A stretch of 32,786 nt of DNA from a virus. The notes below the pieces were generated by a model. That model had not been told where the DNA came from, ran no database searches, and saw nothing but the letters and a program-made list of their open reading frames with translations. A program made the translations under genes and the position numbers. Of this stretch, positions 1,431 through 23,636 are shown piece by piece. Position 1 is the stretch's first letter. Each line of letters opens with the position of its first letter. Location: positions 1-32,786 of IMG/VR virus record IMGVR_UViG_3300017764_000041; one strand, 5' to 3'.

Positions 1431-3959
1431 TTATATTGTTGCTCTTAATTCACCTGATGCTGTTACAGACCAAGTAAAACCTGTTGATGCATACACAACA
1501 TCATCAAATGTTGCATACGTTGATGAACTAATATTATCTTGTCCACCATTTGTTGTAGTTACTGATAAACTACCTGTAGCTTGATCTACTACAAACCCAT
1601 AAATTTCAGGACTTGATGTGTTGCCACTTCCTGCTGAGTTAATAGTAAGAGTTCCTGCAGTATCATTGTAAGCAGTAGTAATATTGTTTCCTGCTACTAT
1701 TAAGCTAGATACTCTATCGTCTACTCTTTCATCAGTATAATAAAGATTAGAACCTTCTGTTAAGTTTGCTGTTGTTTTGGTTGCTAATCTATTATCGAAA
1801 TCTGAATTTGAAAAACCTGCATTACTAATCCAATCATAATCACTACCATTCCAGCTAAGAACTTCACCAGTTGCTGCAGTTGATTGATTTAAATGTGTAT
1901 CAACCGCACCATTTAAACCAGATGTTGTTTGATATGCACCTAATTGACTGTTATTTGCTAGTTCAATCCATGCACCACCATGAGCATAGTAACCTTTACC
2001 TGTTGCATGAACGTGTGCAAACATACCATGATAAGTAGTAGCACTAGGTAAATCACTAAGTTGTGCATACATATTTGCAAACTTAATTTTACCTGTAGTT
2101 GTAATATCGTTACTACCCATATCTAGAGCAGCTGACTCTACTAAAGCAGTTACTTCTGATTGAGTTTGATCTGCTGTAGCAGAAGATTCTATACCAGATA
2201 ATTTTGTTTTTTCTGCATCAGTAAAAGCATTAGTATTAGATTCACCTTCGTATGCACTTTTGATCTCTGCACCTGTTTGATCGGCAGTTGCACTTGCTTC
2301 TATAGCATTTAATTTTGTATGGTCAGCATCAGTAAACACGTTGCTATCACTGGCACTTTCTACAAGTGTTCTTATCTCACTAGCAGTCTGGTCTGCTGTT
2401 GCTCCTGTTTCAATACCACTTAACTTTGTATTTAAAGCTGTAGTATAAGAAGAAGTAGTTGCATCTAATACTGAACTATGAGCCTGGACATCAGATCCAA
2501 TAGCTACACCCATATTAGTTCTAGCAGTTCCTGCATTTGGTAAATCAGATAAATTGTTTGACTTTGTTAAGAAAGTAGTTCCTGAACTATAAGCATCTAC
2601 CCATGCACTTCCTGTGTAAACTTTCATAGCTCCAGAGCTAGAATTAAAATATAAAGCACCAGCAACCAAAGCATTTCCGTCATTATCTACAGTAGGATCT
2701 GAACTCTTTGGTCCTAAGTATCTGTCATCAAAACTATCAAAAGAAGCTAAAGCACTATCTCTTGCAGATTCAGCAGCAGTTTGTGCTGAAGCAGCAGCAG
2801 TTTGACTTGTGGCTGAAGCATTTGCACTATTTGCGGCAGCTGTCGCAGAATTACTAGCATTAGTTGCTGATGTAGCTGCGGCAGTCGCACTATTACCAGC
2901 ATTAGTTTCAGAAGTAGCAGAAGCAGTAGCTGAGTTAGCAGAATTAGTAGCTTGAGTTGTAGCTGTAGAGGCAGAAGTTGCTGCATTTGTAGCAGATGTA
3001 GATGCTTCAGAAGCCTTTGTAGTTGCAGTAGAGGCTTGTGTAGATGCAGTTGTTGCAGACGAAGCAGACGCTGTCGCTGAGTTACTTGAATTTGTAGCCT
3101 GTGTACCAGCATTTGTTGCAGATGTTCCTGCATTAGTTTCAGATGTCGCTGCATTAGTTGCTGATGTAGCAGCTTCAGTTGCTTTAGTTGTAGCAGTTGT
3201 GGCTGATGCCGCTGCGTTACTTGCTGAAGTAGATGCTGCAGATGCCGAACTAGCAGCGTTTGTAGCTGACGTAGTAGCTGTTGCAGCGTCTACTACTAAT
3301 TCATATTTTGCACTATTTGCATTTGTAGTAAGAGGCTGAGAACCAGATGATGTGTGTGATTCTAATACAATAAATACATTATTTGTGGATGTGTCTTTAA
3401 TTAAATCTCTTTTGTTATAACTTGTACTTGCAGCCCAGTTACCTCTAAATACACCCAGTTCTTGAGTAGCATCAAATCCATCACCAGAACTATTAATAGC
3501 AAGGACTTTGTTTGCAATCAGCTCTCCAGGTAAATCTGCATTGAAGGTTGTAGTACTAGTTACAGGATATTGTAATGTTCTTAAAAACTTTTCTTCTAAC
3601 TGTTGCATCATAGCAACAATCTTGTCTAATTCTGTATTTAGAGTTTGTATTGGAAAATTACCAGATACTGGAAAGTCAGAAGTTCTAGCAATAGCTACAT
3701 CTCTAATAATGGTAATAACATCATTCAGGGTAGCACCTGAGCCACCTAGTGTTATAGATCCCCCACCTGTTACACCTGCACCAATTACGCTGTATTGTGA
3801 TGCAGATGAAGGTGAGTTGTCATAAGTAAGGAGTGTCGTACCATTGAAAACTTTTAAATCTGCTACGTCAAAAAATTCAAAACTAACAGCAAATGTAGTC
3901 TGTCCAGACGTAGCTGTATATTGATTTTTAGGTGTTGTATCACTTATTTGTAATGCCAT
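1431..3959 (-). CDS. T7 gp17-like tail fibre protein
   Basis: The protein has 842 residues. The first 130 or so match the T7 tail-fibre N-terminal domain that docks the fibre on the tail: an Asn/Tyr-rich opening (NQYTATSGQTTFAVSFEF), then ITIIRD and LNTELDKIVAMMQQLEEKFLRT. A CBM5/12-like stretch follows near residue 172. Residues about 223-397 are an almost pure Ala/Ser/Thr/Asn repeat in seven-residue steps, likely a long helical trimeric shaft. Three copies of an ATADQT repeat 37 residues apart follow. The C-terminal 220 residues are beta-type sequence. Its first ATG shares a base with the stop codon of the upstream internal protein gene. Confidence in the fibre call is high; receptor specificity cannot be read. 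Confidence 0.92.
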   Translation of the reverse strand: MALQISDTTPKNQYTATSGQTTFAVSFEFFDVADLKVFNGTTLLTYDNSPSSASQYSVIGAGVTGGGSITLGGSGATLNDVITIIRDVAIARTSDFPVSGNFPIQTLNTELDKIVAMMQQLEEKFLRTLQYPVTSTTTFNADLPGELIANKVLAINSSGDGFDATQELGVFRGNWAASTSYNKRDLIKDTSTNNVFIVLESHTSSGSQPLTTNANSAKYELVVDAATATTSATNAASSASAASTSASNAAASATTATTKATEAATSATNAATSETNAGTSATNAGTQATNSSNSATASASSATTASTQASTATTKASEASTSATNAATSASTATTQATNSANSATASATSETNAGNSATAAATSATNASNSATAAANSANASATSQTAAASAQTAAESARDSALASFDSFDDRYLGPKSSDPTVDNDGNALVAGALYFNSSSGAMKVYTGSAWVDAYSSGTTFLTKSNNLSDLPNAGTARTNMGVAIGSDVQAHSSVLDATTSSYTTALNTKLSGIETGATADQTASEIRTLVESASDSNVFTDADHTKLNAIEASATADQTGAEIKSAYEGESNTNAFTDAEKTKLSGIESSATADQTQSEVTALVESAALDMGSNDITTTGKIKFANMYAQLSDLPSATTYHGMFAHVHATGKGYYAHGGAWIELANNSQLGAYQTTSGLNGAVDTHLNQSTAATGEVLSWNGSDYDWISNAGFSNSDFDNRLATKTTANLTEGSNLYYTDERVDDRVSSLIVAGNNITTAYNDTAGTLTINSAGSGNTSSPEIYGFVVDQATGSLSVTTTNGGQDNISSSTYATFDDVVYASTGFTWSVTASGELRATI
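2160..2415 (-). repeat. Three 111-bp repeats in the fibre gene
   Basis: Three copies of a 37-residue unit, each marked by ATADQT followed by a Glu-Ile or Glu-Val pair and, in the first two units, an Asn-x-Phe-Thr-Asp-Ala segment. The period is exactly 37 residues between successive ATADQT motifs. Similar units are common in phage fibre shafts. Confidence 0.8.
2760..3290 (-). repeat. Ala/Ser/Thr heptad repeat in the fibre shaft
   Basis: About 530 bp encode repeats of the kind ATSATNA and TASTQAS in steps of seven residues (21 bp). The copies differ at synonymous and near-synonymous sites, so this is an old, diverged coding repeat rather than a recent tandem expansion. It should form a long alpha-helical bundle. 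Confidence 0.85.
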
Positions 3960-20498: not shown

Positions 20499-20500
20499 AT

Positions 20501-20611
20501 TTAATTAAATATTAATCCTAAGATTACTAAAGTAGGAATAGCACATACAAATATTTTACCTTTGTAATTAAGTCCATCCCATTTTCTTTTCATTTTTATT
20601 ATTAAATCCAT
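20501..20611 (-). CDS. 36-residue single-pass membrane peptide
   Basis: ATG at 20611, stop at 20503-20501. The first 19 residues are basic (IKMKRKWDGLNYKGK); residues 20-35 are hydrophobic (IFVCAIPTLVILGLIF), a clear membrane segment with the positive side expected in the cytoplasm. The ATG overlaps the upstream stop (TAATG), as in the surrounding tiny genes, which supports it being translated. Function unknown; a membrane peptide among packaging genes is unexpected. Confidence 0.6.
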   Translation of the reverse strand: MDLIIKMKRKWDGLNYKGKIFVCAIPTLVILGLIFN

Positions 20612-20781
20612 TATGCCCTTGCTTTCTTTTTAGCTGTTGCTGATAGATCTTTAAAGTGAACTATAGGTTTACTTGATGCAGTATGTGATTTGCCTGTATG
20701 TAGTTTACCATTAGGCATTTTATGATATGCACCTTTATGCTCAGTTCCATTTTTAAAGTAATGTTTTTGATTAGCACCCAT
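20611..20781 (-). CDS. Tiny basic His/Lys-rich protein
   Basis: ATG at 20781, stop at 20613-20611; 56 residues. It is rich in Lys and His (KHYFKNGTEHKGAYHKMPNG near the start) and ends in a cluster of Lys and Arg. Such a short basic peptide could bind nucleic acid. Start and stop overlap both neighbours by one base (TAATG). No family recognised. Confidence 0.65.
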   Translation of the reverse strand: MGANQKHYFKNGTEHKGAYHKMPNGKLHTGKSHTASSKPIVHFKDLSATAKKKARA

Positions 20782-20891
20782 TACTTTTTCTTTTTACTAG
20801 CCATAATCTTTTTCTTCAAAGCAGGTGGTAATTTATTTTGTTTACCCTTTAACTTTTTAGATCCAGCGGCAGGTTTTTTCATTCCATACAT
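20781..20891 (-). CDS. Tiny Lys-rich protein
   Basis: ATG at 20891, stop at 20783-20781; 36 residues, of which about 15 are Lys (ends IMASKKKK). A GGAGGG ribosome site lies seven bases before the ATG, one of the best in the late unit, and supports translation. A second in-frame ATG at 20882 would give a 33-residue form. It is probably a nucleic-acid-binding peptide, perhaps carried in the head with DNA; that role is inference. Confidence 0.65.
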   Translation of the reverse strand: MYGMKKPAAGSKKLKGKQNKLPPALKKKIMASKKKK

Positions 20892-22423: not shown

Positions 22424-22807
22424 CTAATCTAGGTCTATCTTGATCGAGAGGTTTCCTCCTACACTGTGCTGTACCTTATCAGGAGCTTTGAACCCACTCC
22501 TATCTAGTATGTCCTTACTGGCTTCTAGCTTCACGTAATCGGACTTCGCTTCCTGCGCAAGTCTAACGATTGTCTTGACTGCTGGGATTGCACCTACCAG
22601 TCCTATCTCAGCTACACGTGAGCGGTAGTACTCTTGTACCTTTGGAAGTCGTAGCGTCTTACTAGCAGTTACTCTACCAGATTCTCCCTTTGCATATCCA
22701 GCTATTTGACTAGCTTTTGCTACGGAGCAACCTTCTGCTACGAGGGTATCAATCAACTTGCGTTGCTTATGTGTAAGTCCGTCAGTTCCTTTTATTTGAC
22801 TGCCCAT
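22424..22807 (-). CDS. terS: Terminase small subunit (probable)
   Basis: The protein has 127 residues. An N-terminal helix-turn-helix-like part (LTHKQRKLIDTLVAEGCSVA followed by KASQIAGY) is followed by a helical oligomerisation region and a short hydrophobic tail (NLSIKIDLD), the usual architecture of small terminase subunits that recognise viral DNA. It is the first gene of the late unit and sits upstream of TerL, although about a dozen small genes intervene. G+C is high: 143 of 300 bases in 22441-22740 by hand count. No ribosome site precedes the ATG, so the message may be leaderless or have a very short leader. Confidence 0.75.
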   Translation of the reverse strand: MGSQIKGTDGLTHKQRKLIDTLVAEGCSVAKASQIAGYAKGESGRVTASKTLRLPKVQEYYRSRVAEIGLVGAIPAVKTIVRLAQEAKSDYVKLEASKDILDRSGFKAPDKVQHSVGGNLSIKIDLD

Positions 22808-22829
22808 AACGATAGATACCTTGCTACGG

Positions 22830-22857
22830 TTTATGTTGTCAAGTAAAAAATTGTAAA
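22830..22857 (-). promoter_or_regulatory. Candidate late promoter upstream of TerS
   Basis: On the minus strand TTTACA (22857-22852) and CATAAA (22835-22830) are 16 bases apart. A consensus TTGACA also lies at 22842-22837, 18 bases before TATCTA, which would start a leaderless message near the ATG. Either would be read by a host sigma-70-type polymerase. The -10 boxes are only fair. Confidence 0.45.
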
Positions 22858-22859
22858 CA

Positions 22860-22869
22860 AACGAGAGAT
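22860..22869 (+). repeat. Direct repeat AACGAGAGAT, copy 1
   Basis: Ten bases repeated at 23237-23246, near the other edge of the control region. Each copy also forms one arm of a hairpin. They could be protein-binding sites. Confidence 0.6.
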
Positions 22870-22883
22870 GTTCCCTCTCTCGT
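22861..22883. promoter_or_regulatory. Eight-base-pair inverted repeat near the late promoter
   Basis: ACGAGAGA and TCTCTCGT flank a seven-base loop. The repeat lies immediately upstream of the minus-strand promoter candidate, where an operator or activator site would be expected. Confidence 0.6.
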
Positions 22884-22917
22884 GCTCTCTCCCCCTAGAA
22901 CGTAGACTGTTTAATGG

Positions 22918-23024
22918 ATCAAACGATTGACCTATGTCTTTTCTATTACCTCAGTCAGCTATGGCGATAGCCTCCTTCGTGTCCTCTATATCTCATATAG
23001 CCACAGGCAACCCAATCGTTTGAT
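22918..23024. promoter_or_regulatory. Large stem with two internal hairpins
   Basis: ATCAAACGATTG (22918-22929) is the exact inverse complement of 23013-23024. The 83 bases between hold hairpins at 22958-22971 (GCTAT, GGCG loop, ATAGC) and 22986-23000 (CTATAT, CTC loop, ATATAG). Together they could form a branched fold, either as RNA or as single-stranded DNA. A flanking G-T pair extends the stem on the plus strand only. Confidence 0.65.
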
Positions 23025-23039
23025 TTACTCTCTCTCGAT

Positions 23040-23096
23040 AATGCTCCATTCGTGGCGACAGCATTGAGGGGGTATCAGCGTGGTACACGCCACGAA
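23040..23096 (+). promoter_or_regulatory. Possible pseudoknot with a competing hairpin
   Basis: Stem one pairs AATGCT (23040-23045) with AGCATT (23060-23065). Its loop contains TTCGTGGCG (23049-23057), which is the inverse complement of CGCCACGAA (23088-23096): the topology of an H-type pseudoknot. A small hairpin (GCGTG 23078-23082 with CACGC 23086-23090) uses some of the same bases, so two folds are mutually exclusive. This is direct base matching; the biological fold is untested. Confidence 0.55.
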
Positions 23097-23103
23097 CTAC
23101 CAG

Positions 23104-23216
23104 AAGATTCTTTCACCAGTCAACCCATAAAGGGTACTGTGCAACAAGTTAGCTTGACGTTTATTTCACTTCGTGAACGGACAAACAACTGGTCGCACTG
23201 ACTGTCTTAGAATCTT
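23104..23216 (+). promoter_or_regulatory. Nested inverted repeats forming a second folded domain
   Basis: AAGATTCT (23104-23111) pairs with AGAATCTT (23209-23216). Inside, ACCAGT (23115-23120) can pair with ACTGGT (23188-23193), or its last four bases join ACCC in a hairpin closed by GGGTACTG (23132-23139) around an ATAAA loop. TTCAC and GTGAA form a further hairpin (23165-23177). Confidence 0.55.
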
Positions 23217-23236
23217 TGGTTGCTAAAGTGGGCATT

Positions 23237-23246
23237 AACGAGAGAT
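23237..23246 (+). repeat. Direct repeat AACGAGAGAT, copy 2
   Basis: Second copy of the 10-bp repeat at 22860-22869. Its GAGAG part also pairs with CTCTC at 23250-23254 in a small hairpin just before the first early ribosome site. Confidence 0.6.
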
Positions 23247-23276
23247 CGACTCTCATCATATCAAAGGAGATATACA

Positions 23277-23636
23277 ATGAAGATAACAAGTAACAATATC
23301 TATGTAGTTCATACACAATACTATGAAGATTATAATATGGAAGCATCCAATTGGGATGAAGGATATTATAAATTTAAAGGAGGAGATACATACTTCCTCC
23401 ATGGTTTTGACAAACTGGCTACAGCTGTAGCATTTGTACATAAGGAACTATGTTATCCAACTGAGTTTCCATCTAGCTATGAAGAATATACATATGATGA
23501 TGCAAGTAAATTATATGGTAAGTATTTGGAAGATGGAGGTGATGTAAAGAAAATAGATTTACATCAGTGGATGGAGTTAAATGAAGGAGGAAAAACGCAT
23601 AGCGTATTAAAAGATGAAGGAGGCAGAAATGCATAA
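23277..23636 (+). CDS. First early protein, unknown function
   Basis: The protein has 119 residues from the ATG at 23277, chosen because AAGGAG lies eight bases upstream; longer reading frames start inside the structured control region. It is acidic and rich in Tyr and aromatic residues (NNIYVVHTQYYEDYNMEASN near the start, then GYYKFKGGDTYFLHGFDKL). No membrane segment or catalytic motif. As the first gene read after infection it is a candidate host-takeover protein, but this is inference from position only. Confidence 0.8.
   Translation: MKITSNNIYVVHTQYYEDYNMEASNWDEGYYKFKGGDTYFLHGFDKLATAVAFVHKELCYPTEFPSSYEEYTYDDASKLYGKYLEDGGDVKKIDLHQWMELNEGGKTHSVLKDEGGRNA

Follow-up and report, generated by a model that had tools for sequence, protein, structure and literature searches.

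The gene-free gap between the terS gene and the early operon of this phage almost certainly holds a structured element under selection, and it is highly probable, from the sequences compared, that close relatives exchange this cassette as a block at a constant position, which lies between the promoter site of terS and the first gene of the early operon. The window, which is the whole stretch of DNA that was analysed, is an IMG/VR virus record of 32,786 bases. Its gap covers positions 22808-23276 (469 bases) and is bordered on the left by terS (22424-22807, minus strand, Pfam Terminase_2) and on the right by the first plus-strand gene of the rightward early operon, which begins at 23277, so that the coordinates given in the original prediction were right. 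Its left end carries a promoter-like terS site, and the gap also contains a structured cassette of about 340-390 nt. The early operon encodes a DUF932 protein, a RecE/YqaJ-type exonuclease, a second exonuclease-like protein and an SSB. The statement that the genome has almost no spacer DNA was a little strong, since our hand-typed gene list also held gaps of 392 (20499-20890, between minus-strand genes), 230 and 222 bases.

The G+C content of positions 22861-23220 was 46.1% (166 of 360, exactly as had been claimed) compared with 33.8% for the whole window, and an equal or higher G+C was found in 23 of 3243 sliding 360-base windows. Eleven exact 8-base inverted repeats were counted in the gap, where at least seven had been announced; the mean of 300 mononucleotide shuffles was 1.67, and one of these shuffles reached 12. 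Two exact copies of the 10-bp direct repeat AACGAGAGAT were confirmed, at 22860-22869 and 23237-23246; they do not enclose the entire gap, and each of them is a helix arm. The gap folded better than all 100 dinucleotide shuffles on either strand, with z-scores of -3.36 (plus) and -3.58 (minus). Searches of Rfam 15 gave no match at the gathering threshold in the window or in 14 loci of relatives, and no match up to an E-value of 10 in the region 22700-23400. A search-level look at the literature on pelagiphage replication, non-coding RNA, terS-adjacent RNA and hypervariable intergenic RNA brought up no account in which the element could be recognised.

No named phage matched the window DNA. The nearest named phage by TerL was the Pelagibacter phage EXVC031P Hodr (66.7% identity over 97% of the query), which by its own annotation has a 337-base gap at the same place. 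In viral contigs, the searches with TerL and TerS led to 263 relatives, of which 80 loci were kept, and to 68 loci; 105 of the loci examined had at least 250 bases upstream of terS and 73 were distinct by their last 280 bases. Absence of the region from close relatives had been named as a result that would count against the original prediction; we found the gap kept at the same place in relatives, with its content exchanged. The TerL proteins of L165 and L166, both on gammaproteobacterial MAG contigs, were 65% identical to that of the window; either the hosts of such phages may not be limited to SAR11, or this MAG may hold phage contigs.

Structure and covariation of the cassette

The first sequence class (class I), to which the window belongs, comprised 20 distinct regions found in 163 loci. 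Alignment A1 was made of 16 of these 20 rows, with L002, L004, L035 and L104 left out, and its consensus had 62 pairs, 28 of them with compensatory change. In alignment A5 (21 rows, 5' domain), 97.9% of the cells were paired, 13 of 31 pairs were changed on both sides and the covariation score was 0.286, compared with 0.098 (sd 0.010) when shuffled and at most 0.061 when slid, in an alignment that leans towards structure by having been fitted to a covariance model. Alignment A3 (3' domain, 14 distinct rows) was made with plain MAFFT; in it 8 of 17 pairs were changed on both sides, with a score of 0.401 versus 0.160. Compensatory changes, the general test of a structured non-coding RNA, went beyond the controls. 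The covariation check proposed in the original prediction was therefore passed, and its reading of the gap as a long structured RNA is supported by all three alignments.

The class I structured, RNA-like element runs on the minus strand from 23249 to 22914, as judged from the alignments, the compensatory changes and the strand test described below; these bounds are predicted, being the limits of conserved structure rather than mapped RNA ends. Its 5' domain extends from 23249 to 23028 and its 3' domain from 23027 to 22914, and the order of its parts on this strand is the closing helix P1, a three-way junction with P2 and P3, the purine run GAGAGAGAG and a second domain closed by P4. The arms of P1 are TCTCTCGTTAATGC (23232-23245, 5' arm) and GCATTATCGAGAGA (23031-23044, 3' arm). 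The 5' and 3' arms of P2 lie at 23208-23217 (core 23209-23216) and 23103-23112 (core 23104-23111), respectively, and 7 of its 11 pairs were changed on both sides. In P3, formed by TTCGTGGCG (23088-23096, 5' arm) and CGCCACGAA (23049-23057, 3' arm), 4 of 9 pairs were so changed. The purine run, at 23028-23036, is located at and just past the 3' arm of P1, and was singled out from the GAGAGAG counts in relatives. The arms of P4 in the 3' domain, ATCAAACGATTG (23013-23024, 5' arm) and CAATCGTTTGAT (22918-22929, 3' arm), had 6 of 8 pairs changed on both sides.

Downstream of the P4 domain, some members have a G-rich element, AGGGGGAGAGAGC at 22884-22896 of the minus strand in the window, and a hairpin with a T-rich tail (22861-22883, minus strand), which is terminator-like on the minus strand and whose tail is not conserved. 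The motif AGGGGGA occurred in 7 of 30 representatives, which is the level of the shuffles (maximum of 8 for 7-mers). The succession of a G-rich element AGGGGGAGAG and a CGAGAGG-type hairpin (22861-22896 in the window) recurs near terS in several classes, with counts not above those of shuffles.

The near-family regions fell into about ten sequence classes when sorted by eye. The covariance model R1, built on the 5' domain, matched the window at 23028-23249 of the minus strand with 157.8 bits, the window being among its training sequences. Run on 71 loci, it recovered four groups outside its training set (L035/L105, L103, L033/L099 and L102/L027, with E-values from 2e-23 to 7e-13), all upstream of terS, on the terS strand and at the same site, while the other 7 of 36 rows had E-values of 0.051 or worse; class VIII and L105 were later joined to class I by this model. 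Across classes, the core GTGCGAC was present in 10 of 30 representatives (shuffle maximum of 8) and TGCGAC in 13 of 30 (6-mer maximum of 14), a common core that hints at remote kinship. Two cassette-core patterns picked out 17 stretches. Thirteen loci were checked for terS and 11 of them had it beside the motif; the remaining four stretches (L052, L057, L089 and L092) were near-family loci already known to have terS. The apparent contexts without terS were discarded, as L173 ends before the terS position and the match in L176 arose by chance within a coding gene.

The constrained strand and the borders of the cassette

The raw folding energy was lower on the minus strand for all 16 5' domains and all 14 3' domains (L009 was left out of the 3' set), but it was not used as evidence of strand because shuffled window sequence showed the same bias towards the minus strand (means of -122.9 for minus and -111.8 for plus). 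The strand was instead tested in a neutral way, by making folds from Watson-Crick pairs only and counting the 1x1 mismatches inside helices, read in the minus sense. The results showed 40 G-T and 6 A-C mismatches in 25 diverse cassettes versus 82 and 91 in shuffles (binomial p of 3e-7, Fisher p of 7e-7, values that overstate independence since the rows and representatives are related and not all independent). The G-T to A-C ratio in the class I 5' domain was 19:5 in the minus fold and 19:2 in the plus fold, and in the 3' domain it was 3:0 and 5:0. In ten other near and mid classes (26 loci) it was 35:2 and 35:1, depending on which strand was folded, and in eight farther regions it was 18:4 and 14:4. 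Among pairs common to the consensus folds of both strands the counts were thin and mixed, with 4 G-T and no A-C in A2 and no G-T and 4 A-C in A3. The class I z-scores were lower on the minus strand for 12 of 16 regions and on the plus strand for 4 of 16. By the mismatch test, the minus (terS) strand is quite probably the constrained single strand, in class I and in diverse other cassettes.

A constraint on the minus strand means that the element is not simply a leader of the early plus-strand message. A functional leader in which the Shine-Dalgarno sequence of gene 1 carries a switch would fit the right border, where the cassette abuts this sequence; in 13 of 38 loci a 7-9 base inverted repeat encloses the Shine-Dalgarno sequence and ATG of gene 1, and the choice of a synonymous Leu codon goes with the cassette (CTT with ATCAAGA in 8 loci and CTA with ATCTAGA in 5). 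In the window, where an inverted repeat around these signals was noted at 23258-23279, a plus-strand hairpin, ATATC-AAAGGA-GATAT (23258-23273, read by eye), carries this Shine-Dalgarno sequence in its loop. The repeat, however, is symmetric and fits either strand, it is absent in this form from the other 25 loci (L102 has another 8-nt match), and the G-T to A-C asymmetry favours the minus strand. The early leader, which had been put forward in the original prediction, was set aside as the main reading on the strand-neutral mismatch test, and we consider it quite unlikely. The repeat itself may be a translational control element of the plus strand or a 5' hairpin of the minus-strand RNA.

Tolerance of G-T mismatches alone does not separate RNA from DNA, and no promoter for an RNA was found in 57 loci, both of which would allow the structure to act as single-stranded DNA, such as a hairpin origin or a primosome site. 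Long three-way architectures like this one are, on the other hand, more usual for RNA than for single-stranded DNA, and we regard a role as DNA as highly improbable. The promoter search concerned sigma70-type sites upstream of the RNA, which were not enriched in the 57 loci (mean percentile of 0.50) with an E. coli-like matrix, from which host promoters may differ. A conserved motif upstream of the RNA was also considered and rejected, since most of the k-mer excess came from the Shine-Dalgarno complement and from sequence that class I members have in common. Terminator-like hairpins were found on the minus strand of 7 of 45 loci (1.9 expected) and on the plus strand of 5 (2.8 expected), a weak excess on which an intrinsic terminator at the 3' end of the RNA was set aside. 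The scarcity of such hairpins and the lack of promoter enrichment both speak against the stand-alone RNA gene that is favoured below.

On the left, the terS promoter-like site of the window lies on the minus strand at 22813-22842, with a -35 TTGACA at 22837-22842, a spacer of 18 and a -10 TATCTA at 22813-22818. Most near-family regions have a -35 of the TTGACA type at a distance of about 30 bases from the ATG of terS (TGTCAAG at 29-32), and Hodr has TTGACA-17-TATACT; scored with an E. coli-like matrix, the sites of 30 loci had a mean percentile of only 0.16. The TTTACAAT element upstream of this promoter (22850-22857, minus strand) follows a pattern, AATTGTAA, that most near-family regions have near position 41-44, counted from the ATG of terS. 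The terS message is predicted to start at or beside the terS ATG. The late terS mRNA would then be nearly leaderless and without a clear Shine-Dalgarno sequence (22813-22842, 22807). The shared control region that had been suggested is thus partly borne out, with a sigma70-like site on the terS side but no enrichment of a sigma70 promoter for the early plus-strand operon.

The same site bears on whether the element could be a cis-acting leader of the late (terS) operon, e.g. a polymerase-modifying antiterminator or a translational control element. The element is on the same strand as, and directly upstream of, this long operon and no late activator was recognised, much as the put-type antiterminator leaders of HK022 are structured RNAs upstream of a long operon on the same strand. 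The element is nevertheless much longer than these leaders, and a separate TTGACA-18-TATCTA site stands between it and terS, so that most late transcripts would not contain it; no promoter was found upstream of the element. A late leader is therefore an unlikely explanation.

Exchange of cassettes between close relatives

The exchange was surveyed in 33 loci (528 pairs). Among the 36 pairs with terS sides at least 90% identical, 20 shared less than 15% of the cassette. The loci L054 and L055 have a 108-base terS side that is 100% identical and first-gene proteins that are 99% identical, while their cassettes have no blastn similarity; their flanks are 90.9% identical over 3844 bases and 97.1% over 555 bases, and the break opens some 63 bases upstream of terS and closes at the Shine-Dalgarno sequence. 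A second clean case was that of L008 and L091, with 97% identity on the terS side and 90% in the first protein. In L013 and L096 (96.2-97.2% over about 6.5 kb) the replaced block includes the first 150-170 bases of gene 1, and in L094 and L096 (95-99% over about 6.2 kb) the exchanged block of L094 has an extra gene.

The pairing of terS genes of 60-100% identity with many different cassettes also argues against a packaging site (cos or pac) or a packaging RNA, to which the position beside terS in the window and in relatives might otherwise point. The contig ends of eight records of at least 31 kb, placed by hand, were scattered relative to terS and no fixed end was seen, as would be expected of a cos site if the genome ended here. 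We therefore hold a packaging role to be very unlikely.

Because of the pattern of exchange, our favoured reading, a tentative one drawn from the sequences, is that of an exchangeable, trans-acting and type-specific non-coding RNA gene. The cassette would be a stand-alone gene for an RNA of about 340-390 nt, which the host RNA polymerase would transcribe leftwards, beginning close to where the first early gene starts and stopping short of the terS promoter. This RNA would act type-specifically, either in the control of superinfection or early genes by pairing with a complementary early leader, or in counter-defence against a host factor. Type-specific action would favour the rare type, and whole cassettes would consequently recombine at their conserved borders. 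The P4 immunity RNA and CopA suggest how type-specific control could arise from a small RNA that is complementary to an early leader, and frequency-dependent exchange would be expected of such control; the phage element is, however, more complex than simple antisense stem-loops, and pairing and immunity are only proposed for it. Like GOLLD, ROOL and the marine candidate RNAs of Rfam, it would be a structured phage RNA without an assigned function, but it differs from them by the lack of an Rfam match (in the window and 14 loci), by its fixed site next to terS and by its exchange between close relatives.

The exchange of alleles between near-identical phages is familiar for protein genes such as those of tail fibres, repressors and anti-defence proteins, whereas the unit exchanged here is structured and does not code for protein. 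Should it prove to be an RNA gene, it would represent a new RNA family with no counterpart in Rfam 15 and would give a handle on the start of replication or on competition in small marine phages without recognised initiators. The gap of EXVC031P Hodr, a culturable relative, makes the question accessible in laboratory infections. A wider view, possible but doubtful, is that of a new kind of variable locus in lytic marine phages, fixed in place next to terS, where near-identical phages swap structured-RNA genes that do not align but have a common plan (a long closing helix, then GAGAGAG), and where the alleles either determine a type, meaning the co-infecting phages or host defences that a phage tolerates, or act as RNA-primed origins that need no protein, in a lineage poor in initiators.

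The purine run and the replication genes

An RNA-primed origin like that of ColE1 is the main rival of the type-specific RNA gene. A leftward RNA, hybridised to the plus strand at the purine run, would be used by the host as a primer, and such an origin would be exchangeable as no phage initiator must fit it. GAGAGAG was present on the terS strand of 39 of 43 near-family regions versus 3 of 28 farther regions, these three belonging to a clade whose searched members have DUF932, and it occurred in 18 of 30 representatives compared with at most 8 in shuffles. The O-like initiator (phrog_391) was found in 8 of the 48 records searched (seven contigs and MEP301), i.e. in 8 of the 24 other records but in none of the 24 from the near family, although 8 of the latter have a length of at least 31.8 kb; HTH_36 gave the same 8. 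Neither profile, the test for a lambda-type ori, had a match in the window record. As the original prediction had stated for polymerase, primase and origin-binding genes, the window yielded neither a polymerase nor a primase nor an O-like initiator; several of its small early proteins had no informative family match.

These distributions are in favour of an RNA-primed origin, as are two precedents. ColE1 uses a non-coding RNA made by the host polymerase and no plasmid initiator (PMC5043065), and the related phage MEP301 is described as having neither an RNA nor a DNA polymerase (PMC8024684). The element would resemble RNA II of ColE1 in being a structured non-coding RNA of a few hundred nucleotides with a purine-rich run beside the structure, in a phage where no initiator protein is recognised and the host polymerase would be needed. 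It differs from RNA II in that the promoter, the antisense RNA I, the hybrid and the origin are putative only, in that relatives bearing an initiator are also structured, and in that the whole cassette is exchanged. Against this reading, the O-carrying relatives L113, L126 and L131 had minus-strand z-scores upstream of terS of -4.9, -6.0 and -6.8, respectively, and the O-carrying L124 reached -8.8 (the best of several windows). Hodr, L112 and L134 had no O-like match, and Hodr and the class of L112 had no GAGAGAG. The pattern of initiator and purine run follows phylogeny, and one of the early proteins of no recognised family could be an initiator. An origin of this type is thus possible but rather unlikely.

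DUF932 was found in 17 of the 48 records (one of them below the cut-off) and ERF in 8, the two never together, and the near family seems to have DUF932 in place of the ERF single-strand annealing protein and to be without a recognised initiator. The predicted structure of the DUF932 protein had a mean pLDDT of 69 and was uninformative, with no PDB match at an E-value of 0.001 or less except borderline ones to long nuclear-pore chains with TM-scores below 0.15. The GC skew of the window follows gene direction and decides nothing as to an origin. It becomes positive inside a minus-strand gene at 2501-3500, the neighbouring minus-strand genes being mostly negative.
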